Of a stretch of DNA of 64,000 bases, positions 7,560 to 64,000 are shown piece by piece. The stretch's first letter is position 1. Each line of letters opens with the position of its first letter. Below the pieces are notes generated by a model, which saw only the letters and a list, made by a program, of their open reading frames with translations, was not told the origin of the DNA and did not search any database. Source of the stretch: Dechloromonas sp. ZY10 (lineage in GTDB: Bacteria; Pseudomonadota; Gammaproteobacteria; Burkholderiales; Rhodocyclaceae); assembly GCF_041378895.1 (NCBI RefSeq), contig NZ_CP144212.1:2465501-2529500 (forward strand). The letters run 5' to 3'. Made by a program: the position numbers and the translations under genes.

Positions 7560-7635
7560 GAGAAAAGTCTCCGATCAAGCGACAATGAATACGTTTACGG
7601 ATAGCCGTTTCTCATACTGCAATGCAACAAGAAAA

Positions 7636-7663
7636 TTCCCTCATTGCAAAAAATTGCTATAAT
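7636..7663 (+). promoter_or_regulatory. candidate sigma-70 promoter of the Met-rich lipoprotein gene
   Basis: A perfect TATAAT (7658-7663) lies 73 bases before the ATG at 7737. The -35 region (about 7636-7641, TTCCCT) is weak. The gene has its own downstream terminator, which fits a single-gene transcript. Confidence 0.5.
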
Positions 7664-7736
7664 CGCACGTTGATCAGGTCGCTCCTGGTCTCCCAACGTT
7701 TCAACATTTTACGTTTCTTATCGATAAGGAAATCCC

Positions 7737-8006
7737 ATGAACAAGTCTATCCTCGCCGCCGCCCTCCTCGCCGTTGCCCTGTCCGCTTGCGGCAAGAAGG
7801 AAGAAGCCGCCCCGGCCCCGGCCCCGGCTCCGGCTGCTGCTCCGCAAGCTGGCATGGCTGGCATGGAAGCCGCCAAGCCCGCCGAGCAAGCTGGTATGGC
7901 TGGCATGGAAGCCGCCAAGCCCGCCGAGCAAGCTGGCATGGCCGGCATGGAAGCCGCTAAGCCTGCCGAGCAAGCTGGCATGGCCGGCATGGAAGCCAAG
8001 AAGTAA
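7737..8006 (+). CDS. methionine- and alanine-rich repeat lipoprotein
   Basis: The 89-residue product begins MNKSILAAALLAVALSACGKKEE: a signal peptide with lipobox LSAC, so it is probably lipid-anchored. An Ala/Pro linker follows, then three full copies of a 14-residue unit, GMAGMEAAKPAEQA, and a partial fourth (GMAGMEAKK). Eight methionines fall in the repeat region. No enzyme or known domain is recognised. It resembles in style, though not in sequence, the secreted methionine-rich peptide at 61419-61754. Its own promoter and strong terminator indicate a monocistronic and perhaps abundant transcript. Possible roles, all inferred, are oxidant scavenging or copper binding. Confidence 0.85.
   Translation: MNKSILAAALLAVALSACGKKEEAAPAPAPAPAAAPQAGMAGMEAAKPAEQAGMAGMEAAKPAEQAGMAGMEAAKPAEQAGMAGMEAKK
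7851..8003 (+). repeat. 42-base tandem repeats inside the lipoprotein gene
   Basis: Units at 7851-7892, 7893-7934 and 7935-7976 are nearly identical, and 7977-8003 is a partial fourth copy. They differ mainly at third codon positions, so the repeat is maintained at protein level and in frame. Confidence 0.95.
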
Positions 8007-8020
8007 TCCTTCTTCGCCAT

Positions 8021-8056
8021 CCAAGAAAAACGGGGCTTCGGCCCCGTTTTTCTTGG
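8021..8056 (+). terminator. Rho-independent terminator of the Met-rich lipoprotein gene
   Basis: A perfect 16-base-pair stem with a TTCG tetraloop (8037-8040) and a GC core CGGGGC/GCCCCG followed by TTTTTCTT lies 15 bases after the stop codon. Confidence 0.95.
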
Positions 8057-8069
8057 CCTGAACGGCAAG

Positions 8070-8096
8070 AAAAACGGCGCCATAGGCGCCGTTTCT
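8070..8096 (-). terminator. Rho-independent terminator of the dapA-bamC operon
   Basis: On the minus strand AAACGGCGCC, a TAT loop and GGCGCCGTTT are followed by TTCTTGCC. It lies about 20 bases beyond the bamC stop. Confidence 0.85.
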
Positions 8097-8117
8097 GATC
8101 TCATTCGGCCAGCAGGA

Positions 8118-9245
8118 TTACTGCAACTGCTGCTGCAACAATCCGAGAATACGGCGCGCGGTTTCGGAACGATCGGCTCCACCCTCGCTGGACAAGACCT
8201 GAACCACACTACCGGCACCGCCATCGCGGATATAGATACGATACTGTGTACGGCTATTTGCCACTGGCTCACTGCCCTTCCAGAACGCAAGCTTCGACAG
8301 CAGGCTATCGGGCTTCTTGTTCATTCCGGCATCCGGGTCAACATAGCGGACAAAATACAAGCCCCGCGAACGATCCCGGTCTTCCACCGTAAACCCGATC
8401 CGGTCAAGCGCCAGTCCGACACGACGCCAAGCTCGATCAAAACGTTCGCTAACCTCAAGCGTCCCCGAACCATCGTTGGCACTTGCCAGGCGAGCACGCG
8501 GCTCGACCTTGGCAGCAGCAATACTGACTTCGGCACGCTTCTCTTCCGTCCCCAGCCGCACCATCAAGCGCCGCAGCATTTCGGCTTCCAGCTCGACATC
8601 CGGCGGCCGTGGCTGCCAGCGCGTTTCATCCTTGGCCGAAGAGGTATAAACCTCCTCCATACCACGATGACTGATGAAAATATCAGTTGTTCCCGGTTCC
8701 GCACCGGGCTCGAAGCGGGTTCTGAACTTGTCCCGCTCACCACTCGAATACAGCGAGTCAAGAAGCTTGCCGAGAGTATTCCGGATGATGTCATCGGCAA
8801 TCTTGGCCCGGTTTTCCGCCCAATCGGTCTCCATCACCCCAGCTTCCGGGCGCTCGATGGAGACGATGAAGCCGGTTTCCTGCCAGAAATCCTTCACCGT
8901 ATCCCATAATTTGTCAGCAGGCATGCCAACCACCAGCCACCGCTGATTTCCCGAACGCTCGACACGAACCTTGTCAACCTGCGGAAGAATCGCGGTATTT
9001 TGGCTCTGCGCCTGCGGCGTGCGATCTGCTGCATAAGCCGAGAAAGTAGCACTCCCCTTGCCGGCAATATCCGGCACCAGAAAGCGATCATCCTTGGCCA
9101 GCTGCGACAAGTCGGGAGGAATCTCCAGCGAAGGCGCCTTGCCCGCCGACTTGTACTCGATCTTCTTCGACTCGGGCAAGACGCTGCAACCTGCCAGCAT
9201 CACGGCGACCAGCGACAGCGCTACCCCGGAGAAACGACATTTCAT
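8118..9245 (-). CDS. bamC: outer membrane assembly lipoprotein BamC (NlpB)
   Basis: BamC is a lipoprotein of the BAM complex, which inserts beta-barrel proteins into the outer membrane. The 375-residue product begins MKCRFSGVALSLVAVMLAGC with a clear lipobox (LAGC), then the unstructured segment YKSAGKAPSLEIPPDL typical of BamC, followed by two helix-grip domains. The ATG at 9245 is preferred over 9266 because it starts the signal peptide. It lies 13 bases after dapA on the same strand, the same order as dapA-nlpB in E. coli, and ends at a terminator. Confidence 0.94.
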   Translation of the reverse strand: MKCRFSGVALSLVAVMLAGCSVLPESKKIEYKSAGKAPSLEIPPDLSQLAKDDRFLVPDIAGKGSATFSAYAADRTPQAQSQNTAILPQVDKVRVERSGNQRWLVVGMPADKLWDTVKDFWQETGFIVSIERPEAGVMETDWAENRAKIADDIIRNTLGKLLDSLYSSGERDKFRTRFEPGAEPGTTDIFISHRGMEEVYTSSAKDETRWQPRPPDVELEAEMLRRLMVRLGTEEKRAEVSIAAAKVEPRARLASANDGSGTLEVSERFDRAWRRVGLALDRIGFTVEDRDRSRGLYFVRYVDPDAGMNKKPDSLLSKLAFWKGSEPVANSRTQYRIYIRDGGAGSVVQVLSSEGGADRSETARRILGLLQQQLQ

Positions 9246-9258
9246 CAAATACCCCTTG

Positions 9259-10137
9259 TCAGGCAAGCAAACCGGCTTGGCGCAAGGCAGCCAGCACTTT
9301 GGCCTGCCCCGCCTCGCCCAGGGTTGTCAGCGGCAGCCGGATACCACCCGGCATCATTCCGAGCTGCTCGACGGCCCACTTGACCGGAATCGGGTTAGCC
9401 TCGCAGAAGAGGTCGCGGTGCAGCCCCAGCAACTTGAAATGAATCTCCCGCGCCTTGGCCACCTCGCCCGCTGCCGCAGCGACGCACATCTCATGCATCA
9501 GACGAGGCGCGACGTTAGCGGTGACGGAAATATTACCGTGGAAGCCCATCATGATTGTCGAGACACAAGTCATGTCATCGCCGCTATACAGAGCAAAACC
9601 CTGCGGCGCGCGAGCAATCAGATCGCAAGCCCGATCAAAATTACCGGTGGCATCCTTGACCCCGACAATCCCGGGCACTTCTGCCAGACGCAAAATGGTG
9701 TCGTTGCTCATGTCGGCAACGGTACGCCCAGGCACGTTGTACAGGAGCACAGGCAATTCCACCGCTTCAGCGATGGTCTTGAAGTGGCGATAAAGGCCTT
9801 CCTGCGTCGGCTTGTTGTAATACGGAACCACTGACAGGGCCATGTCGGCGCCAGCCTTCTTGGCAAAGCGGGTCAACTCGATCGCCTCTGCCGTCGAATT
9901 GGCACCCGTCCCGGCGATCACCGGAATCCGCCCGGCGGCATGCTCGACCGTCACCTTGATCAGTTCGCAATGCTCTTCAACGCTGACCGTTGGCGATTCG
10001 CCGGTGGTTCCGACGATCACGATGCCATCAGTCCCTTCGGCAACATGAAAATCAACCAGCTTGCGCAGGGAGTTCAAATCAAGGCTGCCATCCTCGTGCA
10101 TCGGGGTGACAATCGCAACAATGGATCCAGTAATCAT
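9259..10137 (-). CDS. dapA: 4-hydroxy-tetrahydrodipicolinate synthase (DapA)
   Basis: DapA condenses pyruvate with aspartate semialdehyde in the lysine and diaminopimelate pathway. The 292-residue protein begins [20 protein letters not shown] and has [14 protein letters not shown] (pyruvate-binding threonines), [14 protein letters not shown] with the proton-relay tyrosine, and the Schiff-base lysine in [12 protein letters not shown] near residue 160. Length is normal. I use the ATG at 10137; the frame is open further upstream but not homologous. It is the first gene of a pair with bamC. Confidence 0.98.
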
Positions 10138-10243
10138 GGCCTGACAAAAAGAAAATAATCCCTTGATTGTAACTGAAGCCTCAGCCCCGCGAAATGCCAA
10201 AAGCGGGCATTTCTCGCACCGCCAAAACCTTCGGGCGCCAAAG

Positions 10244-10272
10244 AAAAAGCCCGGAACGAATCCGGGCTTTTT
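10244..10272 (-). terminator. Rho-independent terminator of phaC-phaB
   Basis: A 12-base-pair inverted repeat (10244-10255 with 10261-10272; core AGCCCGGA/TCCGGGCT) has a five-base loop and flanking A and T runs. It lies 26 bases after the phaB stop on the minus strand. Confidence 0.88.
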
Positions 10273-10298
10273 TACGAATCCAGCAGGTCGACCGTGGA

Positions 10299-11042
10299 TT
10301 ACTGGTAGTACAGGCCGCCGTTGATGTTGATGGTGGCGCCGGTGGTGAAGCCGGACAGCTCATCGCACAGATAGGCACAGGCAAAACCGATTTCTTCCGG
10401 CTTGGCCAGGCGCTTCATCGGCACCGAGTCAACGATGGTTTGCAGGATTTCCGGCTTAATGGCCATGACCATCTTGGTAGCAACATAGCCCGGAGCGATG
10501 GCGTTAACCGTCACACCCTTGTTGGCCAGTTCGGCAGCCAGTGCCTTGGTGAAGCCGATGACGCCAGCCTTGGCGGCGGAGTAGTTGGTCTGGCCAGCCT
10601 GCCCCTTGACGCCATTGACCGAAGAGATGTTCACGATGCGACCGAAGCCACGCTCGGCCATCTTGGCGGAGACCTGCTTGGTCATGTTGAACAGCGAAGT
10701 CAGGTTGGTGGCGATCACAGCATCCCAGCCATCTTTTTCCAGCTTGGCGAACATGCGGTCACGGGTGATGCCAGCGTTGTTGATCAGGATGTCGACCTGA
10801 CCGCAGGCGGCTTCCGCTTCGGCAACCATGCGCTGGCAATCTTCGAGGACGGACACGTCGCCGCCAACACAAACGAAGTCGTTGAAGCCGGCAGCAGCCA
10901 TCTCCTTCAGCCACTCTTCCTTGTTGTCGAATTGCGGGTGATAGGCCGCGACCACCTTGTGCCCGGCCTTGGCCAGTTGCTGACAAATGGCGGTACCCAG
11001 GCCGCCCATGGCGCCGGTAACGATTGCAACACGTTGCGTCAT
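10299..11042 (-). CDS. phaB: acetoacetyl-CoA reductase (PhaB)
   Basis: PhaB is a short-chain dehydrogenase that reduces acetoacetyl-CoA to (R)-3-hydroxybutyryl-CoA with NADPH, the monomer for polyhydroxybutyrate. The 247-residue product has the nucleotide motif [24 protein letters not shown], the catalytic serine in NISSVNG and the YSAAK tyrosine-lysine pair near residue 154. The segment [21 protein letters not shown] at the C-terminus is close to characterised PhaB proteins. It follows phaC by 87 bases; no phaA is present in the window. Confidence 0.95.
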
Positions 11043-14826: not shown

Positions 14827-15775
14827 ATTCGAGACGCTCAAGCAACTCGCGCATATCTGCGGGCGGAGGCGCCTCCCATTGCATCAAGCGACCGCTCAGC
14901 GGATGCAGCAAACCAAGGCGGGTGGCATGTAGTGCCTGCCGGTGAAATTCGGGCAAACGGGCATGCGGCTTGCCATAGACGGGATCACCGACGAGGGGAT
15001 GACCGATCGATGCCATGTGCACGCGAATCTGATGCGTCCGCCCCGTCGCCAAGGAACATTCAACGTAAGTGCAGTGTGGGTAATAAGCGAGTATGCGGTA
15101 CCAGGTCAGCGCCGGCTTGCCACCACGGCTTTCCGGCACCACCGCCATTTTGGTCCGCTGCACCGGATGCCGGCCAATTGGAGAGTCCACGCCGCCATCA
15201 GCCTTGACCGTGCCAGCGACCAGTGCCAGATAGACCCGGCGCACGCTCCGGGCCTGCAATTGGCGCACCAGATCGGTCTGCGCTTCGAGTGTTTTGGCAA
15301 CTACCATCAGGCCACTGGTATCCTTGTCCAGACGATGCACGATGCCCGCCCGCGGAACCTCCGCAATACCGGGAATGTGGTGCAACAACGCATTCATCAA
15401 GGTTCCGCTCCAGTTCCCGCTCCCCGGGTGTACTACCAGCCCGGGCGGCTTATTGATCACCAGCAGGCATTCGTCCTCGTAGACGATATCCAGCGGAATG
15501 TCTTCCGGCTGCTCGGCGAGCACCTGCGCATCGGGTGGCTCGGCCAGGGACAACTGCTCGCCACCATGCAACTTGCGCTTGGGCTCAGTTTCCACCTGAC
15601 CGTCAATCCTGACCAGGGAGTCACGCACCCAGCCCTGCAGCCGGTTACGGGAATGCTGTGGCAGCAACTCTGCCAGGACCTGATCCAGTCGGCGACCGGA
15701 ACAGGTATCGGGAACGCTCAGGACGAGCGGTTCAGTTCGGCTATAATCGCCGGAGTTTTCCATAGGATCGTTCAT
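14819..15775 (-). CDS. rluD: 23S rRNA pseudouridine synthase RluD
   Basis: RluD makes pseudouridines in helix 69 of 23S rRNA. The 318-residue product has an N-terminal S4 domain (RRLDQVLAELLPQHSRNRLQGWVRD) and the catalytic motif HRLDKDTSGLMVVAKT with the nucleophilic aspartate, then GRTHQIRVHMASIGHPLVGD. The start is either the ATG at 15775 or the one at 15763. The first overlaps the divergent bamD start codon, so the second would be tidier. It overlaps pgeF by eight bases. Confidence 0.95.
   Translation of the reverse strand: MNDPMENSGDYSRTEPLVLSVPDTCSGRRLDQVLAELLPQHSRNRLQGWVRDSLVRIDGQVETEPKRKLHGGEQLSLAEPPDAQVLAEQPEDIPLDIVYEDECLLVINKPPGLVVHPGSGNWSGTLMNALLHHIPGIAEVPRAGIVHRLDKDTSGLMVVAKTLEAQTDLVRQLQARSVRRVYLALVAGTVKADGGVDSPIGRHPVQRTKMAVVPESRGGKPALTWYRILAYYPHCTYVECSLATGRTHQIRVHMASIGHPLVGDPVYGKPHARLPEFHRQALHATRLGLLHPLSGRLMQWEAPPPADMRELLERLEYA
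15742..15747 (+). promoter_or_regulatory. candidate -10 element for bamD
   Basis: A perfect TATAAT lies 27 bases before the bamD ATG and inside the first codons of divergent rluD. No convincing -35 hexamer is seen at the usual spacing, so this is tentative. Confidence 0.4.
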
Positions 15776-16619
15776 GATGCGAAGTTTAGCCGTAATCCGG
15801 AGTTTCTCGCCGTTTTGCCGCAACGCTGCCGGTTTTTTCCGGCTTGCGCCGGTACTGCTGGCCGCCGCGCTAATTGCCGGCTGCGCGAGCAATGAGAAAT
15901 ACGACGAAACCGCCGGCTGGTCGGCAAGCAAACTCTATTCCGAAGCCAAGGATGCGCAGGCCGATGGCGGCTGGGATAAAGCCGCCAAGCTGCTGGAAAA
16001 ACTGGAGGCACGCTACCCCTACGGTCGCTACGCCCAGCAGGCGCAAATGGAACTCGGCTACATCTACTGGAAAGGCGGCGAACCCGGTTCCGCTTTGGCG
16101 GCCTGCGACCGCTTCATCAAACTGCATCCAAATCACCCCGCCGTCGATTATGCCTACTACCTCAAAGGCCTGATCAATTTCAACGAAGACCAGGGTTACG
16201 CCGGCTACATCAGCAAGCAGGATCCGACCGAACGCGACCCCAAGGCGGCCCGCGAAGCCTTCGACACGTTCAAGGAACTGGTCGCCCGCTTCCCGAAGAG
16301 CAAGTACGCACCGGATGCAGCCAAGCGCATGCACTATCTGGTCAATGCACTGGCCTCACAGGAAGTTCACGTCGCCCGCTACTACATGAAGCGCGAAGCA
16401 TATATTGCAGCGGTCAACCGGGCCCAGTTTGCAATCAAGACCTATCCGGAAGCGCCGGCCATCGAGGAAGCACTGTCGATCATGGTCACCGCCTACGACC
16501 GGTTGGGTATGCCGGAACTGCGTGACGACGCAAGCCGCGTCTTGCAAAAGAATTTCCCTGAAAGCCGCTTCACCAGCAGCAAACTGGCGGAAGACAAAGC
16601 CTGGTGGAAATTCTGGTAA
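15774..16619 (+). CDS. bamD: outer membrane assembly lipoprotein BamD
   Basis: BamD is the essential TPR lipoprotein of the BAM complex. The 281-residue product has a signal peptide with lipobox LIAGC at about residue 36, then repeated TPR-like helices (SASKLYSEAKDAQADGGWDK, RYAQQAQMELGYIYWKGGE, YAYYLKGLINF) and the characteristic RFPKSKYAPDAAKRM and EVHVARYYMKREAYIAAVNR segments. A second ATG immediately follows the first. It is divergent from rluD with touching start codons. A terminator follows. Confidence 0.96.
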   Translation: MMRSLAVIRSFSPFCRNAAGFFRLAPVLLAAALIAGCASNEKYDETAGWSASKLYSEAKDAQADGGWDKAAKLLEKLEARYPYGRYAQQAQMELGYIYWKGGEPGSALAACDRFIKLHPNHPAVDYAYYLKGLINFNEDQGYAGYISKQDPTERDPKAAREAFDTFKELVARFPKSKYAPDAAKRMHYLVNALASQEVHVARYYMKREAYIAAVNRAQFAIKTYPEAPAIEEALSIMVTAYDRLGMPELRDDASRVLQKNFPESRFTSSKLAEDKAWWKFW

Positions 16620-16650
16620 TCACCAAACCGGATTTCCCACAAACGAAAAC

Positions 16651-16681
16651 CGCGCCGGCCCAAAAGCCGCGCGTTTTTTTT
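16651..16681 (+). terminator. Rho-independent terminator after bamD
   Basis: The stem CGCG-C-CGGC with GCCG-CGCG has one bulged C and a six-base loop and is followed by a run of eight T. It lies 31 bases after the bamD stop. Confidence 0.85.
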
Positions 16682-16722
16682 AATGCACCAAGCAAGGCTG
16701 ACACGCCAGCCGGAACCCCATC

Positions 16723-19113
16723 TCAACTCCCTTGCTTGATCGCCAGCACAGCCTGGTTCCGCAAGGTGCGCAGCAAAGACAACTCCTTTTCCGGAATCGA
16801 AATTCCACCGGGTTCATCGCGATCCGCATAGATCAAGGCAACCGGGTTGTTTTTGATGTTCAGCGGGAACAACACCATCGACTGCGCCGGCAAGGCTTTG
16901 CGGTACCAACCGGGTACGCGCGGCGCGATTTTTGGATCATTGATGTCGTTGATCAGGATGTCGACACCTTTCGAGGTGGCAACATGAAAGACATCAGCAG
17001 AAAAACTCAGGGGAAAACGGAATGTCTTGACCACCTCAGTTGTGTTTGGCCCGAAACCAAAACGACCGATCATGCTATTGGTCTTGGCATCACGAACACA
17101 GAGGATCACGCGCTTGAAACCCATCGCCCGATACATGGTTTCCAGAATGATGCGCAAGATGTCATTCAGCTTGAAGCCATCGACCAAAGTATTGCTGATA
17201 TCCTGAATCCCGGCAGTTAGAATTGCCTGCGCATCAATCCGGGTATCCAACTCGCGACCATCCTCGCTGACCTCTTCAATGATTCCATAAGCCCCCTCAT
17301 CCTTGAGCACGGTTGAACTGAGGGTGTCTTCGCCGACCCGCGCTCCGCCCGCAACAGCATCTCCCTTGCCGGAGAAGAACTGGCGCATCTGCTTGCCAAA
17401 CGTGGTTTGCTGCAGGTTCAGATGAATGATCCGGGCAAATTCCGCCACCTCCTCAACCGAACGCTGCATGCTTTGCTTGACCTCCTTGTCGGAGAGAGGG
17501 ACTGCAGCGGCGTAGCGGGCCATTATCTTGCGCATTTCCTTGTCCCTGCCTTCGCCGCCAGGCTGGGCGACCAGTTGGCACAACTCGTTGGCCATCCCTG
17601 ACAGCACCCGTTGCCGCTCCTCTGGGGTTACCGGCTTGCGCACCAGGCCATCAGGCAAGCGCCGCATGGCACCAACGATCAGGGGAGGGAACCCCCATTG
17701 GCGGGCAATTTCGATGCCCATTTCCTCGTAGGAAACGCCTAGTACCTGCTGCGAAGCGACATCCTCGGTCAATTCGCGCTGTGCCGCCAGACGCCGAATC
17801 TCCTCCGCTTCTTCAGGGAAATAATACTGCGAAAGCAGGCGCCCGAGATTGTGGAACAAGGCACAGATGAAGCTTTGCTCGAGATCCCGCATCTGGGCTG
17901 CGCCCCCCAACTCCTTGCCCAGAATCCCTGCCAGATTGGCGCGGAGGAACTCCTCCTTGAGCTGGTTGGCATTGGATTTATTCTGCAGGTGCTCAAACAG
18001 CAACACACTGATTGCGATATTGCGCACAACATCAAAGCCAAGGACGATCACCGCACGCGATACGGTGCTGATACTCCCTCCGCCTGCTGGCCTGAAATAG
18101 GCGGAATTAACCAACCGCAGGATTTTGTTGGTCAGTGCAAAATCCTTGAGAATCGAATTCGAGAGCTTGTTTACACTCTCTGTTTCGCTGGCGGCGATTT
18201 TGTTAATCGTAGTAACCGACTCCGACAAGGCAGGAAAATCGCTCTTGTGCCGCATCCGCCGCAACAGGAAATCGATTGTCGATTGCTTTCCCTCACTGGC
18301 TGCAGTCTCGGCCTCCGGTGCAAGGTAGGCGTCGAGCGCCTCAGCAAACTGGTTGGCACTCTGGTACCGCAGGCAGGGATCACGAGCCAGCGCCTTGTTG
18401 AGGATTTCCCCCAGACGCTGATCGACAGCAACGCCGGCAGGCAGGCGAATGTCTTCGTTGGCGACCCGATTCATCACCTGATAGATATTGTCGCCCTGTG
18501 CTGCCCGTTGCCCGGTTAACAGTTCATAGAGGATCAGCCCGGCGGCAAACACGTCCGAACGCTCGCTCAACTGGCGGTGAGCAATATATTCCGGCGCCAT
18601 GTACGCCGGAGTACCGGTGTACTCATCCGGCGACTCGGCCGGGCCATCAACCCGGGCAGCAATCCCGAAATCCATTACCCGTGGCAACCCATTTTCATCG
18701 ATCAGGATATTCGACGGTTTCAGATCCCGGTGAATTACCCCATGCCCATTGGCATAGGCCACCGCATCCAGGATCGGCCGAATCAGCGCGATAGCGCGAC
18801 CCGACGGAAGAGCCCCCGATTCACGCAGGTAAGCGGCAAGATTTTTACCCGGTACATACTCGAAAACCAGGTAAAGATCGCCGGCCTCCTCACCAGCTTC
18901 GAAAATCGGAACGATATTCGGATGGCGGAGCTTTCCGACCGTCCGCGCCTCGTTGAGCAGAGTCTGATTTTGCTGCGGATCCGGTTTGCCGAAATGCAGG
19001 GTCTTGATCGCGATTTCGCGCTGCAACTGCGGATCGAAGCCGAGATAAACGACACTCTGAGCCCCCCGGCCGAGTTCGCCCTTGACGTCAAAGCGTCCGA
19101 TTTTCTTGCTCAT
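16723..19113 (-). CDS. serine/threonine protein kinase fused to HDOD and GAF domains
   Basis: This 796-residue protein joins three modules. Residues 1-270 form a Hanks-type kinase with GRGAQSVVYLGF, the ATP lysine in EIAIK (37), Glu55, HRDLKPSN (128-135), DFG (148-150) and the GTPAYMAPE activation-loop end, so it looks active. Residues about 290-500 are an HDOD domain (LSNSILKDFALTNKILRLVNSAYF and VIVLGFDVVRNIAISVLLFE). The C-terminus, about 630-796, is GAF-like. No transmembrane segment is visible. It is last in an operon after the DUF748 and DUF3293 genes, overlapping the latter by 26 bases. Substrate and ligand are unknown. Confidence 0.92.
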   Translation of the reverse strand: MSKKIGRFDVKGELGRGAQSVVYLGFDPQLQREIAIKTLHFGKPDPQQNQTLLNEARTVGKLRHPNIVPIFEAGEEAGDLYLVFEYVPGKNLAAYLRESGALPSGRAIALIRPILDAVAYANGHGVIHRDLKPSNILIDENGLPRVMDFGIAARVDGPAESPDEYTGTPAYMAPEYIAHRQLSERSDVFAAGLILYELLTGQRAAQGDNIYQVMNRVANEDIRLPAGVAVDQRLGEILNKALARDPCLRYQSANQFAEALDAYLAPEAETAASEGKQSTIDFLLRRMRHKSDFPALSESVTTINKIAASETESVNKLSNSILKDFALTNKILRLVNSAYFRPAGGGSISTVSRAVIVLGFDVVRNIAISVLLFEHLQNKSNANQLKEEFLRANLAGILGKELGGAAQMRDLEQSFICALFHNLGRLLSQYYFPEEAEEIRRLAAQRELTEDVASQQVLGVSYEEMGIEIARQWGFPPLIVGAMRRLPDGLVRKPVTPEERQRVLSGMANELCQLVAQPGGEGRDKEMRKIMARYAAAVPLSDKEVKQSMQRSVEEVAEFARIIHLNLQQTTFGKQMRQFFSGKGDAVAGGARVGEDTLSSTVLKDEGAYGIIEEVSEDGRELDTRIDAQAILTAGIQDISNTLVDGFKLNDILRIILETMYRAMGFKRVILCVRDAKTNSMIGRFGFGPNTTEVVKTFRFPLSFSADVFHVATSKGVDILINDINDPKIAPRVPGWYRKALPAQSMVLFPLNIKNNPVALIYADRDEPGGISIPEKELSLLRTLRNQAVLAIKQGS

Positions 19114-56192: not shown

Positions 56193-56951
56193 TTACCAGC
56201 TGGCTCCCTGCGGCCCTGGCATGAAATGCAGTGGAGCCACTTCTGCCTTTTCTCTAGCCATTTTCTGCTCGATGCGCAGGCGCAGCACTTCCCGAGCCGG
56301 CTGCGGATAGCCGGCATACTCGCCCAGCAGGTGACGCAGCCGCCCCAGCCACCAATGGGTCAGCCCGGCCAATGCAGCATAGAAGTCGCAGTCGGCAAAC
56401 TGCACCACACGCGCAGCAAACTCGGGAAACCAGTAGCCGACATGCTCGTCGATGAAACAGGCAATTTCCTCCGCCCGCGCCGACAACGGCGCCCGGCCAA
56501 AACGCCGGAGGCTATGTGCCAGGTAATGCAGTTGCGGCACCAGATGATCATCGAAGTATTGCTGCCGGTCGGCCAGCGACAAGCCAGCCTGGGCATACAG
56601 TTCGCGCAATTCGAACATCGGTGCCGCGCAGGCCAGATGGTCGTCCGAGAGCCATACCGATTCGCAGGGTGACGTCCCGTAGCGATGATTCAGATAGATT
56701 GCAGCGTAGTCGGCGGCCAGCCGGTCTAGGCCGGCTGCATCACGCGGCAGGCCCGCAACAGCCCGGGACATTTCACTCAGGACTTGCGCCTCGACCGCCG
56801 CAGCCGGCAGCAAGGCCAGCCCCTGTGGAAATTGCTCGGCCTGCAGCGCGTCGACCGTGGGGAGATCCAGTTCATGCTGATGCAGGCGCACCAGTTGCTC
56901 CAGATCATCGGCCAGGGCAGCAAAAAAGGAAGAAATCACCCCATCAACCAT
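56193..56951 (-). CDS. TorD-family molybdoenzyme chaperone
   Basis: The 252-residue product resembles TorD/DmsD/NarJ chaperones that guide cofactor insertion and Tat export of molybdoenzymes. Key segments are AADYAAIYLNHRYGTSPCESVWLSDD (the E-S-V-W(L) region) and YYFDDHLVPQLHYLAHSLRRF-like helices. It overlaps the iron-sulfur protein by eight bases, and the upstream gene is a DmsA-like enzyme, so this chaperone probably serves it. I prefer the ATG at 56951 over 56978. Confidence 0.85.
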   Translation of the reverse strand: MVDGVISSFFAALADDLEQLVRLHQHELDLPTVDALQAEQFPQGLALLPAAAVEAQVLSEMSRAVAGLPRDAAGLDRLAADYAAIYLNHRYGTSPCESVWLSDDHLACAAPMFELRELYAQAGLSLADRQQYFDDHLVPQLHYLAHSLRRFGRAPLSARAEEIACFIDEHVGYWFPEFAARVVQFADCDFYAALAGLTHWWLGRLRHLLGEYAGYPQPAREVLRLRIEQKMAREKAEVAPLHFMPGPQGASW

Positions 56952-57612
56952 CGACTCGCCCCTTGCTGTGCGGAACAAAAGCCACCGAGGGCTTGGTCAG
57001 TTCGGGATTGGCCATGTTCTTGACCTGTTTGACCGGCTGGTCGTGCGGCCCCATCGCGGTGGTTTTGAGTTTGCCACTCCAGATCTGCTCGATCGGCCCG
57101 ATGTCGAGGACGCGCATCATGCAGGCCATCACGCAGTAAGGCTTGCGCCCAGCCTCCAGTTCGTCGATGCACATGTTGCATTTCTTGACCACCAGTTCCT
57201 GCGGGTCCCACTGCGGTGCTCCGTAGGGGCAGGCAGCTTCGCATTTGCGGCAGCCGATACACAGCGTCGAGTCGATATCGACCACCCCGTTATCGGCCCG
57301 CTTCCAGATCGCACCGGTCGGACAGGTCGGCAGACAGGCCGGTTCGGCGCAGTGGTTGCACGACATGTTGACCTTATAGGCATAGACCTCGGGATAGCTC
57401 CCACCCTCGACGTACATCACGCGCCGGAAGCGCGGCCCCGGCGGCAGGCCGTTCTTGTCCTTGCAGGCAATTTCGCAGGCGCGGCAGCCGATGCAGTCGA
57501 CATTGTGGTGGATGAAGCCGAGCTGGACGGCCGGCTTGACCGGCTCATAGGTCTGCGCCACCTTGCGTTCGATCCCGGCTTTCAATTCCTGTTTATCGAT
57601 TTTCCTGACCAT
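56944..57612 (-). CDS. DmsB-type four-cluster iron-sulfur subunit
   Basis: A 222-residue electron-transfer subunit with four clusters of cysteine motifs: CIGCRACEIACKD, CNHCAEPACLPTCP, CIGCRKCEAACPYG and CNMC...CVMAC. This order matches DmsB/NrfC-type proteins. No twin-arginine signal is present, so it would be exported only in complex with the catalytic subunit. The ATG at 57612 overlaps the molybdoenzyme stop as TGATG. It likely relays electrons from the cytochrome to the molybdenum site. Confidence 0.93.
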   Translation of the reverse strand: MVRKIDKQELKAGIERKVAQTYEPVKPAVQLGFIHHNVDCIGCRACEIACKDKNGLPPGPRFRRVMYVEGGSYPEVYAYKVNMSCNHCAEPACLPTCPTGAIWKRADNGVVDIDSTLCIGCRKCEAACPYGAPQWDPQELVVKKCNMCIDELEAGRKPYCVMACMMRVLDIGPIEQIWSGKLKTTAMGPHDQPVKQVKNMANPELTKPSVAFVPHSKGRVDG

Positions 57613-60185
57613 CACTTGTCCCTCCGGAAGATCACCGAACGCGAAGTCGCCTGGGTATCCCAGCCCGGACGGTGGTTCAGTGTCGTTTTCCTGAAATCGA
57701 CGAGGATGGTGTTGTAGGCAAACGCCCCGGCCGGACTCGGCTGGTCAAGGGTCAGGAAGTCGGGATTGCCGGAACGGTCGGAGCCATCCTTGGCCAGATC
57801 CATCCACGCCCCCTCGTAAAGCACGACCACGCCGGGCATGCAGCGCTCGGTCACATAAACCGGCACTACCACCTTGCCGCGCTCGTTCCAGACCTCGACG
57901 ATATCGCCGGTCTTGAGCCCCTTTTTTGCCGCATCGGCGGCGTTGACCGTGATTTCCTGCTGGTAGGTCTCGCGCAGCCAGGGAATGTTGTGAAAGATCG
58001 AATGCGTCCGCCAACGCGGATGCGGGGTGATCATGTGGAAGGGGAATTGCCGGGCCTTGGGGTGATTCAAGGACTCGAAAGGCTCAATCCATTTAGGAAT
58101 ATACGGTATTTCATAACCGTACTGTGTCCGCGTCCAATCCTTGATTCCGGCAAGATAGCCGGAAAGCACCTCGATCTTGCCCGACTGCGTGGGAAACGGA
58201 ATCCCCTTTTCGATCTGTTCCTGGAAGGCCACATGCGGCCGATCGAACTTGAACTTGTACACCCCGTGCCGCTTGAAGTCATCCCAACTCATCGTCACGC
58301 CCTGATGCGCCTGAACCTTGTGTTTCCACCAGTCGACCAGATAGGCCTCGTCGGTGGCGTCGTTGTCCTGGAAATAGCTGCGCGTTGCCTTGGGGTTGTA
58401 GCGTTTGCCGAAGTCCTTGACGCTCGGGTCGATCTGCTCGATCCGGTAGGCAAGTTCGGTAAATACCTGGAAATCGGTTTTGGCCTCGCCCAGAGGCTGA
58501 ATCGCCTTGGGCCGGTGGATGTAGTAATGCCCTTTGTACCAGGGCAAGGCGACATCGTGGCGCTCGAAGTGGGTGGCAATCGGGAAAAGCACATCGGCCC
58601 ACAGGCCGGACGGGGTGATCGTCGAGTCCATGCAGACCACCAGTTCCAGCTTCTTGATCGCGGCGATTTCCTTGTTGATGTTGGTCAGCTGGTTGAACCA
58701 GTCGGAGCCATGCCAGAAAATCGCCTTGATATTGGGAATCTTGCCGTCCAGCTCGTCATCGCGCGGCCAGCAGCCAATTTCCTCGCGCTTCACGTTGGGA
58801 TAATTCAGCACGCAGTGCGCCCAGCGGTCAGACTTGATCGAGGCGTACCAGACATTGGCGTACTGATCGTAAGGATAGGCCACCGACTCGGCATGCCAGC
58901 CTTTGCCGACCCCCTCGGCGCAACCGCCGAGGACACCGATGTTGCCGGTCATCGCCTGCAAGACTGCAGCCATCCGGTTGTACTGCTCGCCGTAGCTGGC
59001 CCGCCCCGGCGCCCAGCTGGCCTTGAGCGCGGCCGGTTTGGTCAGGGCATACATTTCGGCCAGCTTCTTGATGTCGGCTGCCGGCACACCGCAGATCTGC
59101 TCGGCCCACTCGGGTGTCTTTGGCGTGTTGTCGTACTTGCCCAGGATGTAATCCTTGAAGTTCTCCTTGTCCTTGAAGCGCTCGGGCGTGGTTCCGGCAT
59201 CCATCCCCTGGCAGAAGCGGTCGATGAACTTCTGGTCCTGCCAGTTGTTGGCAAAGATGTGATGCGCCATCCCGGCCAGCATCGCGGCGTCGGTATTCGG
59301 CTTGATCGGAATCCACCAGGCGTCGTAGGCCGCCGCCGAATCGGTGTATTGCGGGTCGATGACGACAAACTTGCAACCGCGCTGCTTGGCCAGCCGCATG
59401 TAGTAAAAAGTATTGCCGCCATGGAAAGTGTAGGCCGGATTCCAGCCCCACATGATGATCAGCTTGGAATGGGCAAAGGCATCGTCCTCATTGCCATCGG
59501 TAATCGTGCCGAAGGTCATCCGCGACGAAAAAGTCGTCCCCTGATAGCTCGGCACCGACCACGAATTGGTGCGGCAGCCGAACATCCCGAGAAAACGCGC
59601 CAGCAAGCCCTCGATCTGGTCCGACTTGTGCAGCACGCCATAAGAAGTGCCGGCATAAGCCTGATCGAGAATCGCGGTCGGGCCATAGGTCTGCTTCAGC
59701 TCGACCATCTTGCGCGCCACGAAGTCAAGCGCCTCATCCCAGGAAACGCGCTTGAACTTGCCCTCGCCCCGCTCGCCCACCCGCAGCATCGGGTAGAGCA
59801 GCCGTTCCGGCGAATACAGCCGGGCGCGATACGAGCGGCCGCGCAAACAGGCGCGCAATTGCGGCACCTGCTCACTTTCGAAACCGAATTTTCCACCCTC
59901 TTGGTAACGTCCGTCATCCGTCGACAGGCGCACGATCACATCGCCCTTCTTGTGCGCCACCAGCATGTGGCGGGAACCGCAGTTGTGATCACAGGAAGTG
60001 ACCACGGTGGTCAACTCGTCATCCTTGGGATAGGGCTCGTAGGCAAAGGCCTGCACCTGTTGCTCGCCACTGCCCAGTTCGACCAGAGTCCCGGCCCCGG
60101 CGACCGCTGCCCCGGCCCCGACACTTTTGAGAAAACTGCGCCGGCGGGGATTAAGCAAATTCAGCCAAGCGTTCTTTTTATCCAT
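57612..60185 (-). CDS. DmsA-like Tat-exported molybdoenzyme (S-oxide reductase-like)
   Basis: An 857-residue catalytic subunit of the DMSO reductase family. A twin-arginine signal is visible (NPRRRSFLKSVGAG, residues 12-25), so it acts in the periplasm. The cluster region aligns with DmsA, including RACLRGRSYRARLYSPERLLYPMLRVGERGEGKF, but the ligand order is Cys65-x3-Cys69-x3-His73...Cys113, so the third cysteine is histidine. NSWSVPSYQGTT carries the probable molybdenum-ligand serine. There is no DmsC; instead the next upstream gene is a pentahaem cytochrome. Substrate not proven: DMSO, methionine sulfoxide or another S-oxide is my inference. Confidence 0.93.
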   Translation of the reverse strand: MDKKNAWLNLLNPRRRSFLKSVGAGAAVAGAGTLVELGSGEQQVQAFAYEPYPKDDELTTVVTSCDHNCGSRHMLVAHKKGDVIVRLSTDDGRYQEGGKFGFESEQVPQLRACLRGRSYRARLYSPERLLYPMLRVGERGEGKFKRVSWDEALDFVARKMVELKQTYGPTAILDQAYAGTSYGVLHKSDQIEGLLARFLGMFGCRTNSWSVPSYQGTTFSSRMTFGTITDGNEDDAFAHSKLIIMWGWNPAYTFHGGNTFYYMRLAKQRGCKFVVIDPQYTDSAAAYDAWWIPIKPNTDAAMLAGMAHHIFANNWQDQKFIDRFCQGMDAGTTPERFKDKENFKDYILGKYDNTPKTPEWAEQICGVPAADIKKLAEMYALTKPAALKASWAPGRASYGEQYNRMAAVLQAMTGNIGVLGGCAEGVGKGWHAESVAYPYDQYANVWYASIKSDRWAHCVLNYPNVKREEIGCWPRDDELDGKIPNIKAIFWHGSDWFNQLTNINKEIAAIKKLELVVCMDSTITPSGLWADVLFPIATHFERHDVALPWYKGHYYIHRPKAIQPLGEAKTDFQVFTELAYRIEQIDPSVKDFGKRYNPKATRSYFQDNDATDEAYLVDWWKHKVQAHQGVTMSWDDFKRHGVYKFKFDRPHVAFQEQIEKGIPFPTQSGKIEVLSGYLAGIKDWTRTQYGYEIPYIPKWIEPFESLNHPKARQFPFHMITPHPRWRTHSIFHNIPWLRETYQQEITVNAADAAKKGLKTGDIVEVWNERGKVVVPVYVTERCMPGVVVLYEGAWMDLAKDGSDRSGNPDFLTLDQPSPAGAFAYNTILVDFRKTTLNHRPGWDTQATSRSVIFRRDK

Positions 60186-60196
60186 GATTTTTGCCT

Positions 60197-61039
60197 TTAT
60201 TGCGGGTTGACCGTGGCAGTCGTGCGGAAGCGTGCTTCCGATTCGGTTGGACGATTCTTTGCCCAGTCCGGCACCTCCGGACTCATTCCTTCCCAGGCAT
60301 GGCGTGGGTAAGGATAGGAAATGCGATACCAGGAACGCCCGCCATGGCAGCCGTAACAAACCTCGGCATCCTTTTGGCCGGCGGCCTCGATAGCGGCCGG
60401 CTTGAGGTAGTTCACCTGATGCCGCCGGGTACGAATCGCGGCGTGGCAGGTCAGGCAGGAGTTCCCGAAGATTTCCCGGCTCTCCTGCCAGGGGCCGGGC
60501 AAGCCCATGATCTGGGTATTCATCTGACCGTGGCATTTGAGACAGGTGGTTTCTGGGTTGACCGCCTTGCGCAGGGTAAAACCCGGATCGCCCTGCGGCG
60601 CAGCCGTTGCTGACGAGCCTTGGGCCTCCTCGCGGGGATCGTGCCCCTGATGACAGGTATTGCAGGAAAGATTCATCAATTCCCGCGCCATCGGCGACAA
60701 CAGATGCCGGCGATGAAAGGTATCCTGCTCACCACTATACGTACTCACCCGCTGATACCAGGCCTTGCTGGTCGCGGCCGCAATCCCGGCCGGAGAACGC
60801 TCGCGGACCTTGTCGTCGAGCACTTCACGATGACAGGCCAGGCATTGGGCATCGGTCGCCTGCTCAATCGCCGGCCTGAAGTGAAGCGGATCGTAACTTG
60901 CCCGCAAATGATCCGGATGCGACTCGGCAAGCACCCGCTCCCGATTATCGCGACTGATCTGCCAGCCGGCCCCGAGGCCAAGCAACAATGCCAGTGCAAG
61001 CAATCCGGCAATCAACCCGGTAGTTCTTGAATTATCCAT
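60197..61039 (-). CDS. membrane-anchored pentahaem cytochrome c
   Basis: The 280-residue product has one N-terminal transmembrane anchor (about residues 7-26, TGLIAGLLALALLLGLGAGW) and five CXXCH motifs: CLACH, CNTCH, CLKCH, CLTCH and CYGCH. It is not NapC/NirT, which has four haems with different spacing. It lies 11 bases before the molybdoenzyme and on the same strand, so it is the likely electron donor to the periplasmic reductase, replacing the quinol-oxidising membrane subunit usually called DmsC. The ATG at 61039 has a GGGAAGAA ribosome site. Confidence 0.9.
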   Translation of the reverse strand: MDNSRTTGLIAGLLALALLLGLGAGWQISRDNRERVLAESHPDHLRASYDPLHFRPAIEQATDAQCLACHREVLDDKVRERSPAGIAAATSKAWYQRVSTYSGEQDTFHRRHLLSPMARELMNLSCNTCHQGHDPREEAQGSSATAAPQGDPGFTLRKAVNPETTCLKCHGQMNTQIMGLPGPWQESREIFGNSCLTCHAAIRTRRHQVNYLKPAAIEAAGQKDAEVCYGCHGGRSWYRISYPYPRHAWEGMSPEVPDWAKNRPTESEARFRTTATVNPQ

Positions 61040-61041
61040 AC

Positions 61042-61359
61042 TCAATTCTTCCCGCTGGCTTTGCCGGCGACATGCAGGCCACGCAGGTCGTAATACCCCG
61101 GCATGTTCGGCCGATTGAACGGGGTATACCAAGCCCCCTGATCCTTCAGGAAGGCCGTGCCATTCGCAGGCAAGCCAAGGCCTCTGACGGCATTAGCCTT
61201 CCATGCCTCGCTCTGTTCGAAACTGACAATCCGCGGCGCCGCAACCGGTCGCCGATCCGGTTGCAAGCCGGCCACCGTAACCTCACGGGCGTCACTGGCC
61301 GAGGCCAGGCCGCAGCCCGCCGCATAGACCAGCACATACCCCAACCAAAACTTCCGCAT
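61042..61359 (-). CDS. small exported protein of unknown function
   Basis: A 105-residue product with an N-terminal signal segment (MRKFWLGYVLVYAAGCGLASAS; possible lipobox AAGC) and a mature part containing SFEQSEAWKANAVRGLGLPA and WYTPFNRPNMPGYYDLRGLHV. I do not recognise a family. The ATG at 61359 follows GGGAGGGGTG. It stands between the methionine-rich peptide and the cytochrome and is probably co-transcribed. Perhaps an assembly or accessory factor; this is only a guess from position. Confidence 0.8.
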   Translation of the reverse strand: MRKFWLGYVLVYAAGCGLASASDAREVTVAGLQPDRRPVAAPRIVSFEQSEAWKANAVRGLGLPANGTAFLKDQGAWYTPFNRPNMPGYYDLRGLHVAGKASGKN

Positions 61360-61379
61360 CACCCCTCCCATCACGCAAA

Positions 61380-61418: not shown

Positions 61419-61754
61419 TTACTTCTTCTTGCCTTCCATACCGGACATCCCGGACATGCCGCTCATCCCCGACATGCCTTTCTGACCTTCCATGCCCGAC
61501 ATGCCGCTCATCCCGGACATACCCTTCTGGCCTTCCATGCCCGACATGCCGCTCATGCCTTGCTGCTTGCCAGCCTTCTTGCCCTCCATGCCCGACATCC
61601 CGCTCATGCCCGACATGCCGGACATGCCACTCATCCCCTTCTGGCCTTCCATGCCGGACATCCCGCTCATGCCCTTCTGCTCAGCGGCCACCGAGCCGCT
61701 CAGGGCAGCCAACGAAACGATAGCAACGGCAGCAATAGTCGACAGCTTCTTCAT
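61419..61754 (-). CDS. secreted methionine-rich repeat peptide (MrpX-like)
   Basis: The 111-residue product has a signal peptide (cleavage near SVAA-EQ, about residue 24) and a mature part of about 87 residues made of GMS and GME repeats in five blocks, each EQKG or QKG then (MSG)n and MEG. I count 21 methionines in the mature part. The only other residues are mainly Gly, Ser, Glu, Gln and Lys. This composition recalls MrpX, the periplasmic peptide that is oxidised by hypochlorite and repaired by YedY1 in Azospira. It follows the predicted sigma-54 promoter and heads the operon. Confidence 0.92.
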   Translation of the reverse strand: MKKLSTIAAVAIVSLAALSGSVAAEQKGMSGMSGMEGQKGMSGMSGMSGMSGMSGMEGKKAGKQQGMSGMSGMEGQKGMSGMSGMSGMEGQKGMSGMSGMSGMSGMEGKKK

Positions 61755-61840
61755 GGGTTACCTCACTGTTGTAGTAGTAGTCATCGTCGCTGCACCAGGC
61801 AGCTGACGGCCCGAGCAAAGGCTGGGGCACAAGCTACTAC

Positions 61841-61855
61841 GCACAAGCCGTGCCA
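61841..61855 (-). promoter_or_regulatory. predicted sigma-54 promoter
   Basis: On the minus strand the sequence is TGGCAC-GGCTT-GTGC. It matches the -24/-12 consensus TGGCAC-N5-TTGC except one base, with the GG and GC pairs at the correct 10-base spacing. Transcription would begin near 61830, about 75 bases before the methionine-rich gene. Confidence 0.8.
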
Positions 61856-62082: not shown

Positions 62083-63417
62083 TTAATCGCTCAACCCGTA
62101 GTGCTTGATCAGGCGATAGATGTTGCGCTCGCTGATCTCCAGCGCCTGCGCCGCAGCAGCGCGATTCCCGCCGTGACGCAACAGGGCTGTGCGCAGGCAT
62201 TCGCGCTCGACCTCGGCCAGTGTTGGCGACTGCGCAAAACTGAATACCACGGCATCGCTACTCCCGCCTTGCAAGGGGCCAAAATGCTCGGGCCGGATCT
62301 TCTCGTCGCGGCCGGCGAGGATCGCCGCCCGTTCGATCAGGTTACGCAACTCCCGGACATTCCCCGGCCAGTCATAGGCCTGCAGCAGACGCAAAGCCTC
62401 CGGGGTCAGCAGCAACTGCCGGCCACGGGCGAAGCGCTGGAGAAAATGCTGGGCCAACAGGGGAATATCCTCGCGCCGCTCGCGCAGGGGCGGCACCCGG
62501 ATGACGAAGCTCGCCAGCCGGAAATAGAGATCGCTGCGAAACCCGCCATTACGGCTCAACTCGGCCAGATCGCGATTGGTGGCGACCACGAAACGGACAT
62601 CAGCCTTGAGCGTCTTGGTTCCGCCGAGACGGCGGAAAGTCGAGGTTTCGAGGACGCGCAGCAGCTTGGCCTGGTTGGCCGCCGACATTTCGCCAATTTC
62701 GTCGAGGAACAGGGTACTGCCGGCAGCCTCCTCGATCAGGCCTTTCTTTTGCCGCTCGGCGCCGGTGAAGGCTCCGCGCTCATGGCCAAACAATTCCGAC
62801 TCGAACAAGGTTTCCTGCAGGGTGCCGCCATCCACCACCACCAGTTCGCCGGCGTGCCGGGCACTGGCCTGGTGAATCGCCTGCGCAACCATTTCCTTGC
62901 CGCTGCCGGACTCGCCAAGGATCAGTACGGTTGCTTCGGTTGGGGCAACGGCATCGATCATCGCCTGCAGTTCGCGCATCGCAGGGGCCTCGCCAAGCAA
63001 CGGGCCCGGCCGCCGCGATGCCAGTTGCCGCCTGAACAAGGCATTGCTGCGCCGCAGTTCGGCATTGGCCAGTTCGCGGCGCAGGGTCAGTTCGAGTTCA
63101 TCCAGCCCGACCGGTTTGGTCAGATACTCGACCGCCCCCGCCTGGATCAGATCGACCGCATTGCGGATCGAACCGTAGCCGGTGAGGACCACGACCGGAA
63201 ACTGACCGGCCAGGGTCTCGACCAGTTGCGGGGTATCGGCATCGGGCAGGCGCAGGTCAAGAAAGATCAGATCCGGCTCGCTCTCGGCAAGAAAGGCCGT
63301 AGCCTCGGCCCAGTTCAGGGCTCCGTAGGCATCGAAGCCCATCTCGCCGATCTGGTCGACCAGCAGGCGGTTGAAAACGCGGTCATCGTCGACCACCAGA
63401 ATCTGTTTGCGCATCAT
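62083..63417 (-). CDS. NtrC-family sigma-54-dependent response regulator
   Basis: The 444-residue product has a receiver (VVDDDRVFNRLLVD with phosphoacceptor in LIFLDLRLPD and lysine in LTKPVG), a sigma-54 AAA+ domain with GESGSGKE, the GAFTGA loop that contacts sigma-54 (ERGAFTGAERQK), and a Fis-type HTH (GGNRAAAAQALEISERNIYRLIKHYGL). It follows its kinase by one base and precedes the operon with the sigma-54 promoter. The ATGATG start at 63417 follows the kinase stop; longer readings are rejected. Together with the kinase it very likely controls the downstream genes. Confidence 0.95.
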   Translation of the reverse strand: MMRKQILVVDDDRVFNRLLVDQIGEMGFDAYGALNWAEATAFLAESEPDLIFLDLRLPDADTPQLVETLAGQFPVVVLTGYGSIRNAVDLIQAGAVEYLTKPVGLDELELTLRRELANAELRRSNALFRRQLASRRPGPLLGEAPAMRELQAMIDAVAPTEATVLILGESGSGKEMVAQAIHQASARHAGELVVVDGGTLQETLFESELFGHERGAFTGAERQKKGLIEEAAGSTLFLDEIGEMSAANQAKLLRVLETSTFRRLGGTKTLKADVRFVVATNRDLAELSRNGGFRSDLYFRLASFVIRVPPLRERREDIPLLAQHFLQRFARGRQLLLTPEALRLLQAYDWPGNVRELRNLIERAAILAGRDEKIRPEHFGPLQGGSSDAVVFSFAQSPTLAEVERECLRTALLRHGGNRAAAAQALEISERNIYRLIKHYGLSD

Positions 63418-63418
63418 C

Positions 63419-64000
63419 CTATTCCTCGGCTCGCTGCAAATACACCTGGAACACGGTCCCTTCGCCAACCACGCTGGAGACATCGATCCGACCGCCGTAG
63501 CGCTCGACAATGCTTTTGCAGATGGTCAGCCCAAGCCCGGTGCCACCTTCGCCATCGGCCCGGCGGCTGTAAAAAGGGTCGAAAATCCGTGCCAGCACCT
63601 CGGCCGGGATGCCACAGCCACTATCGCGGACCTCGATCAGCGCCAGCTTGCCTACCGCAGCGGTCCGTACCTGCAAACATCCGCCCTCCGGCATGGCATG
63701 GTGGGCGTTCTGTACCAGATTGAGCACCAGCATGCGCAGATCGCTATCGTCGGCCAGCACCTCCAGCACCTCCCCGGCGAGTTCGAGTTGCTGCTCGATG
63801 CGATGGCTGCGGGCGTCGAACTCAAGCAGGGTGACGGTATCCGCAACCGCCGGATTGAGTGCAACCCGCTGCGCCTGCTGCTGCGGCAAGCGCGACAGCA
63901 GCAAGAGGCGCTGGGTGACGCCGGTACAGCGGTCAATTTCGGCACTCATCATTTCCAGATAGCCGCTCAAGCGCTGCGGCTCTGCCTGTCCCTGGCGCAG
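63419..64000 (-). CDS. sensor histidine kinase, N-terminus outside window
   Basis: The C-terminal 193 codons of a kinase are present. The end of the dimerisation domain (MMSAEIDRCTGVTQRLLLLSRLP) and the ATPase domain ([55 protein letters not shown]) are clear; the histidine box and sensor lie beyond base 64000. It ends one base before the regulator start, so the two form an operon. The signal cannot be read from this part. Confidence 0.93.
   Translation of the reverse strand: MRQGQAEPQRLSGYLEMMSAEIDRCTGVTQRLLLLSRLPQQQAQRVALNPAVADTVTLLEFDARSHRIEQQLELAGEVLEVLADDSDLRMLVLNLVQNAHHAMPEGGCLQVRTAAVGKLALIEVRDSGCGIPAEVLARIFDPFYSRRADGEGGTGLGLTICKSIVERYGGRIDVSSVVGEGTVFQVYLQRAEE

Follow-up and report, generated by a model that had tools for sequence, protein, structure and literature searches.

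A DmsA-type reductase subfamily with histidine at the third iron-sulfur ligand position and an operon of its own

Towards the end of a 64,000-nucleotide stretch of the Dechloromonas sp. ZY10 genome (contig NZ_CP144212.1, positions 2,465,501 to 2,529,500; hereafter the window) lies a set of reverse-strand genes that includes a DmsA-like molybdopterin catalytic subunit. In order of transcription these genes encode a histidine kinase, a sigma-54-dependent response regulator, a methionine-rich (Met-rich) repeat protein, a small protein, a pentahaem c-type cytochrome, the catalytic subunit, a ferredoxin subunit and a TorD-like chaperone (Table 1). Here, we identify the enzyme as a member of a DmsA-type reductase subfamily that carries histidine at the third ligand position of FS0, the iron-sulfur cluster beside the molybdenum, and that has its own operon logic.

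Translation of the catalytic gene gives SC65DHNC69GSRH73...RAC113LRGR, that is, C65-x3-C69-x3-H73...C113, in agreement with an earlier note on this DNA that had read the motif at residues 65, 69, 73 and 113. The note had placed the motif at 59945-60000; the codons of C65, C69 and H73 do lie in that span, while the C113 codon falls outside it. Its statement that DmsA has cysteine at the third position is borne out by Escherichia coli DmsA, YnfE and YnfF, which align with the catalytic subunit over nearly the full length at 32-35% identity, and the same alignment supports residue 73 as a cluster-ligand position: the stretch from C65 to H73 is free of gaps, and residue 73 coincides with the third Cys of CxVNCGSRC. 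Like these E. coli enzymes, the subunit has a twin-arginine leader, three of the four cluster cysteines and a serine, S213, in the column of the DmsA serine that we take to be a molybdenum ligand, and it is encoded with a DmsB-like partner and a TorD/DmsD-type chaperone. Unlike them, it combines histidine at the third ligand position with a pentahaem cytochrome and with about 23 additional, conserved C-terminal residues (834-857). Its best NCBIfam match is TIGR02166 (DmsA/YnfE), at 599.7 bits and under the curated 777.7; the serine at the molybdenum-ligand position of that subfamily is present as S213, by alignment only, and the four-Cys FS0 motif is broken by the histidine.

Table 1. Features of the operon in window coordinates (aa, amino acids; nt, nucleotides; ORF, open reading frame)
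Feature	Position	Strand	Remarks
TorD-like assembly chaperone, PF02613	56193..56978	-	start uncertain
DmsB-like ferredoxin subunit, 16-Cys pattern	56944..57615	-	ORF from GTG 57615; ATG 57612 likelier start
DmsA-like molybdopterin catalytic subunit	57612..60185	-	857 aa; twin-arginine leader by eye
Codon S213	59547..59549	-	same column as DmsA serine; alignment only
Codon C113	59847..59849	-	fourth ligand position
Codons C65, H67, C69, H73	59967..59993	-	H73 at third cluster-ligand position
Codon H73	59967..59969	-	CAC
Codon C69	59979..59981	-	
Codon C65	59991..59993	-	
Pentahaem c-type cytochrome, five CxxCH	60197..61039	-	N-terminal hydrophobic stretch by eye
Small protein	61042..61362	-	106 aa; leader by eye
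Met-rich repeat protein, GMSGM/GMEGQK repeats	61419..61754	-	signal peptide by eye; about 24% Met after leader
Sigma-54-type -24/-12 site TGGCACG-GCTT-GTGCG	61840..61855	-	about 86 nt before ATG of Met-rich gene
Sigma-54-dependent response regulator	62083..63510	-	longest ORF; true start probably further in
Histidine kinase	63419..64000	-	runs past window end; 621 aa in L133:920-2785

Histidine at position 73 is a fixed feature of this enzyme. A scan of public genomes yielded 295 encoding stretches, of which the best 80 loci were kept. In our locus counts an identity of at least about 70% marks a close homologue, and loci repeat genomes, the close homologues comprising 104 distinct genes. In all 121 fetched close-homologue loci with an intact N-terminus, drawn from Alpha-, Beta- and Gammaproteobacteria, residue 73 is histidine: C[AD]HNCG[SA]RH was read in 120 of them (up to L165) and likewise, by eye, in L163, while L164, whose N-terminus is missing, was left out. 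Histidine in this many loci rules out a sequencing or local artefact. Cysteine stands at the third position in all 26 other motif-bearing loci (DmsA-type and sister) and in 23 DmsA-type sequences compared in an alignment whose rows were grouped by that residue; the latter is a descriptive count and circular at position 73, which the identity-based count and the tree are not. The earlier note had named close homologues with the same partners and a retained cysteine as evidence that would speak against it; none keep it, nearly all of the 121 loci having the same partners.

The enzyme is present in 13 of 60 relatives (the window's own genome included), in 16 of 369 genomes of the window genome's class (own genome counted), in 5 of 397 genomes of a phylum sample (matches at 75% identity or more, own genome counted) and in 3 of 337 genomes of a class sample centred on G161 (matches at 74% or more, own genome not counted). 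Neither the phylum sample nor the two class samples held a match between 41% and 70% identity. The nearest outside lineage, from three genomes at 38-41% identity, reads CGHNCGGRC, keeping the histidine at 67 with cysteine at 73. A 50-row tree puts the 21 histidine rows on one side of one branch with support of 100/100, at the end of a stem whose length is 1.74 changes per column, and the three sister rows come next (support 95/91). Because of this arrangement, the tree shows a single origin of the Cys-to-His change, on the long stem of this DmsA-type subfamily and without reversal in the members seen. The tree programme's warning of long branches meeting weighs against this placement, as long stems can misplace lineages.

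The partners of the enzyme travel with it to different degrees. We took the 64 distinct His-type genes that had 2.6 kb or more of upstream sequence and looked through each whole locus for partner matches at E 1e-3. The cytochrome was recovered at 63, the ferredoxin subunit at 62, the chaperone at 57, the small protein at 52, the Met-rich protein at 46, the regulator at 37 and the kinase at 36. Five CxxCH motifs are present in 97 of 101 distinct cytochromes, with four in two others and six in two, and a PDB sequence search with the window's cytochrome gave no match. All 100 distinct ferredoxin partners scoring at least 300 bits against the window's subunit carry the 16-Cys pattern of four clusters; the window's own subunit scores 190 on TIGR02951, where the cut-off is 214.1. 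No DmsC/NrfD-type anchor was found among the seven window proteins scanned, a set that does not cover every ORF.

The earlier note had suggested that the histidine may relate to coupling to a cytochrome, and this part of its proposal does not hold up well. It is true that the three sister loci, read over 14-15 kb stretches, contained none of the enzyme's partners. As a control, however, we examined the surroundings of other family members in 15 stretches, and three of these (L216, L223 and L224) hold a decahaem cytochrome gene about 2 kb from a DmsA-type gene with cysteine at the third position; two further DmsA-type genes, likewise with cysteine, lie about 6 kb (L216) and about 10 kb (L224) from the decahaem gene. 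We take these decahaem-adjacent genes to be Shewanella-type DmsA with a DmsE-like cytochrome, an enzyme that resembles ours in lying near a multihaem cytochrome gene but has cysteine as its third ligand. Since H73 arose once, its match with the pentahaem cytochrome amounts to a single event, and five cysteine-bearing genes near decahaem cytochromes indicate that multihaem coupling does not seem to need histidine. Cytochrome coupling as the reason for the histidine is thus a weak idea. On a separate point, a Lamellibrachia symbiont (L084) has two His-type enzyme genes (7605-10529 and 15573-18209), each with its own cytochrome.

What the histidine may do at the cluster can be argued from the alignments. 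H73 would take the place of the third Cys ligand of FS0; most probably it binds the cluster, which would then be of the Cys3His [4Fe-4S] type. An altered FS0 potential as the use of such a ligand is plausible. A passage in PMC8840923 describes FS0 of subfamily II enzymes as held by three Cys and one His, and gives the potential of NarG FS0 as -55 mV. Enzymes of the NarG/EbdA type would resemble ours in having one FS0 histidine ligand (PMC8840923, in the same passage), but subfamily II (NarG, EbdA, PcrA) is marked by histidine as the first ligand, as in the E. coli NarG sequence (H50-x3-C54-x3-C58...C93), whereas here C65 is first and the histidine third. A limited literature search met neither a third-position histidine nor this operon for the enzyme family.

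If H73 were instead no ligand, FS0 could be of the [3Fe-4S] type, or H67, water or another residue could serve as the fourth ligand, an alternative that we think rather unlikely. In DmsA cysteine mutants, loss of one Cys can convert a [4Fe-4S] into a [3Fe-4S] cluster, which counts in its favour, and so does H67 (C-x-H-N-C), which is likewise invariant in His-type genes and, as a second candidate ligand beside H73, weighs against our assignment. The sister lineage, with cysteine at 73, has H67 as well, so this residue did not arise as a substitute; the exclusive use of histidine at 73 in 121 loci, moreover, looks like ligand exchange. If H73 does bind FS0, the subfamily would provide a natural, fixed case of third-position histidine ligation beside molybdenum, with the cysteine-bearing sister as a comparison, and the effect of a single ligand on electron transfer would become directly testable.

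The Met-rich protein may indicate what the enzyme acts on. Across loci, the Met-rich proteins carry GMSGM, GMGGM and GMEGQK repeats behind a leader and, judging from that leader as recognised by eye, are probably secreted. Only one such ORF was found elsewhere than at this operon position in 1.38 Mb of the loci. In the sample of the window genome's class, at least five matches to the pattern GMxGMxGMxGM occur in 13 of the 16 genomes with the enzyme and in 1 of the 353 without it (Fisher p 2.6e-20); the cut of five was set after the background counts were known, and a cut of three gives 15/16 against 11/353. One to four matches per genome presumably reflect GroEL tails. The single exception among the 353 enzyme-free genomes, G781, encodes by our reading an unlinked GGM protein, and in G972, which is 55% complete and in which the enzyme was not found, a repeat gene borders the end of a contig, next to a kinase-like ORF that has a single CxxCH. 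A stricter pattern in the 60 relatives is found in 8 of 13 genomes with the enzyme, or 7 of 13 leaving out an AmtB-like match, and in 2 of 47 without; in G015 the repeat pattern forms, by our reading of the sequence, the N-terminus of an AmtB-like transporter. Lipoprotein-like GMSGM proteins were likewise read away from the enzyme in G020 and G023 and at L137:8412-8801 and L139:7043-7555.

The promoter-like site upstream of the Met-rich gene recurs with that gene. For each catalytic gene we took the best site lying 700-2600 nt ahead of it and scored it with sigma-54 weights and a consensus not derived from a database (maximum 15.2). A sigma-54-type site of at least 13 is found in 37 of the 46 loci that have the Met-rich gene and in 4 of the 19 without it (Fisher p 1.1e-5), compared with 5 of 65 stretches shuffled in two-base blocks. 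Among the 18 loci in which the Met-rich gene was not found, only L099 has strong regulator and kinase matches, those in L032 and L033 being weak (23 and 30 bits). The sensor part of the kinase carries NPVPNQPACVACHG, a haem c motif (CxxCH). Among kinases scoring at least 120 bits against the window's, each of the 41 distinct sequences has a CxxCH within its first 330 residues, one of them two; the motif suggests that the kinase is a haem-based sensor. The window's kinase also shows a weak Tll0287-like match, under the cut-off.

Structural comparison puts oxide reductases nearest to the catalytic subunit. For the fold search we used a model with a mean predicted local distance difference test (pLDDT) score of 75 (67-80 in blocks 61-90 and 66 in 111-120), setting aside a model at pLDDT 55. 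Its top Foldseek matches are dimethylsulfoxide (DMSO) reductase, Haemophilus influenzae MtsZ and TorA, which are S-/N-oxide reductases, and VIA-align puts TorA first (Z 35.9, root-mean-square deviation 3.6, 701 aligned). MtsZ, DorA and TorA have a single catalytic subunit and are not known to have an FS0 motif or a ferredoxin subunit. The enzyme described here differs from them in having a ferredoxin partner and an FS0-like motif; phmmer matches to DMSO reductases start at query residue 122, past that motif. Two of these periplasmic S-oxide reductases, MtsZ and DorA, are among the best structural neighbours with known methionine sulfoxide (MetO) substrates (PMC7402097, in part), and the same passage reports that DorA reduces protein-bound MetO and works better on a GAGM(O)Q peptide, in which Gly precedes MetO, than on a GYM(O)E peptide, which has Tyr there. 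According to an extract of PMC12096835, E. coli DmsABC reduces MetO and hypochlorite induces dmsA. In perchlorate reducers, as outlined in part of PMC4623255, MrpX and YedYZ form a methionine-cycling defence against hypochlorite with a molybdenum-dependent MetO reductase. The present operon resembles MrpX-YedYZ (MsrP) in encoding a Met-rich, probably periplasmic protein together with what would be a molybdenum-dependent MetO reductase, at 46 of the 64 loci; unlike there, the reductase is DmsA-type rather than YedY, with no PF00174 gene in the operon, and sigma-54 with a haem-motif kinase stands in the place of SigF/NrsF.

From the precedents of DmsABC, DorA and MrpX we infer, tentatively and as a reading that falls just short of an even chance, an inducible periplasmic MetO reductase with its own methionine sponge, in which a Cys3His cluster passes electrons to the molybdenum. 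The catalytic subunit, paired with a four-cluster ferredoxin subunit, would act in the periplasm and draw electrons from a pentahaem cytochrome that, if membrane-anchored as its N-terminal stretch hints, may replace the DmsC/NrfD anchor; the partners are observed, and their anchoring and the electron path are our proposal. The substrate would most likely be an S-oxide, above all MetO in the GMSGM-repeat protein, whose gene heads the operon. The Met-rich protein would take up oxidant, and the reductase would restore it with electrons from the respiratory chain. The operon would be turned on by the haem-motif kinase and the sigma-54 regulator, whose genes and promoter-like site are present and whose signal we can only surmise. 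A fuller version is more doubtful: a self-contained methionine redox buffer, in which a haem-sensing kinase and sigma-54 induce a secreted methionine polymer along with a dedicated reductase bearing a third-position His-ligated FS0, so that oxidised methionine polymer of the cell's own making would in effect serve it as a respiratory electron acceptor. If the enzyme does act on the repeat protein, methionine-sponge defence would extend from YedY/MsrP to a DmsA-type respiratory enzyme, one that occurs in Alpha-, Beta- and Gammaproteobacteria.

Several observations weigh against a MetO reductase with its own sponge. Among the strongest is that no Met-rich gene turned up at 18 of the 64 loci, some of which are cut by contig ends; it is therefore not an obligatory neighbour, and we rejected the idea that it is a universal one. 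In several enzyme genomes (for example G870, G912 and G1079) the pattern matches lie on another contig than the enzyme, so the association holds by genome and not by place. At L136 (G038:C5), GMSGM repeats were read inside a CopA-like multicopper oxidase with a twin-arginine leader, near copper-resistance-like genes, a setting in which they could bind copper, as the repeat might here. VIA-align scores formate dehydrogenases and nitrate reductases within a few units of TorA, and so nearly level that fold alone cannot fix the substrate; membership of the subfamily leaves it unfixed as well, because DmsA relatives reduce many S- and N-oxides. Loss of dmsA in one E. coli strain raised resistance to killing by hypochlorous acid (PMC12096835, in the extract cited above). 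Finally, the window genome has two PF00174 genes, about 88 and about 338 kb from the operon; one may be MsrP, and MetO reduction may already be covered by such a protein.

Some of these points bear on other functions for the enzyme. It could be a respiratory oxyanion reductase, acting on chlorate, selenate or similar, with the Met-rich protein scavenging by-products such as hypochlorite in the manner of MrpX. The hypochlorite defence of perchlorate reducers (PMC4623255, as outlined there) gives this idea a precedent. The family, moreover, includes selenate and chlorate reductases, and the top-scoring curated models for the catalytic subunit are those of DMSO/selenate and selenate/tellurate reductases. 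We nonetheless consider it distinctly unlikely: the top Foldseek matches are S-/N-oxide reductases, the position of the Met-rich gene at the head of the operon would fit a MetO substrate better, and no chlorite dismutase appeared in the L130 annotation or in a scan of seven window proteins and nine others, in work that included no dedicated search for one.

An improbable alternative makes the Met-rich protein a binder of copper or another metal, and leaves the enzyme to handle an unrelated small S- or N-oxide. The repeats in the CopA-type protein of G038 and the loci without the Met-rich gene speak for it. The way in which long repeats track the enzyme across the class sample speaks against it, as does the lack of a copper family among the same seven window and nine other proteins, a scan that was not a dedicated search for copper genes. 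A dehydrogenase feeding cytochrome c, for which a histidine-raised FS0 potential would be suitable as in dimethylsulfide dehydrogenase, is very improbable: the extra class I cytochrome c domain on the Rhodobacter xanthinilyticus cytochrome would suit it, but the best sequence and Foldseek matches are reductases, and an NrfD-type membrane subunit and a trihaem cytochrome, encoded at L043:13005-15210 between chaperone and kinase and possibly a quinol module, suit quinol oxidation towards the enzyme.

Some further features of these loci deserve mention. The small 106-residue protein had no Pfam or NCBIfam match. The set is also present on plasmid pEJ01 of R. xanthinilyticus (L130), which is typed as conjugative and on which the cytochrome is fused to a class I cytochrome c domain. 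Polyferredoxin-like proteins are encoded after the chaperone gene at L063:11889-12905, L072:12393-13478, L077:7442-8527 and L130:12985-13974; we counted 24-28 cysteines in those of L063, L072 and L077, and checked Pfam for L063 and L130 only.

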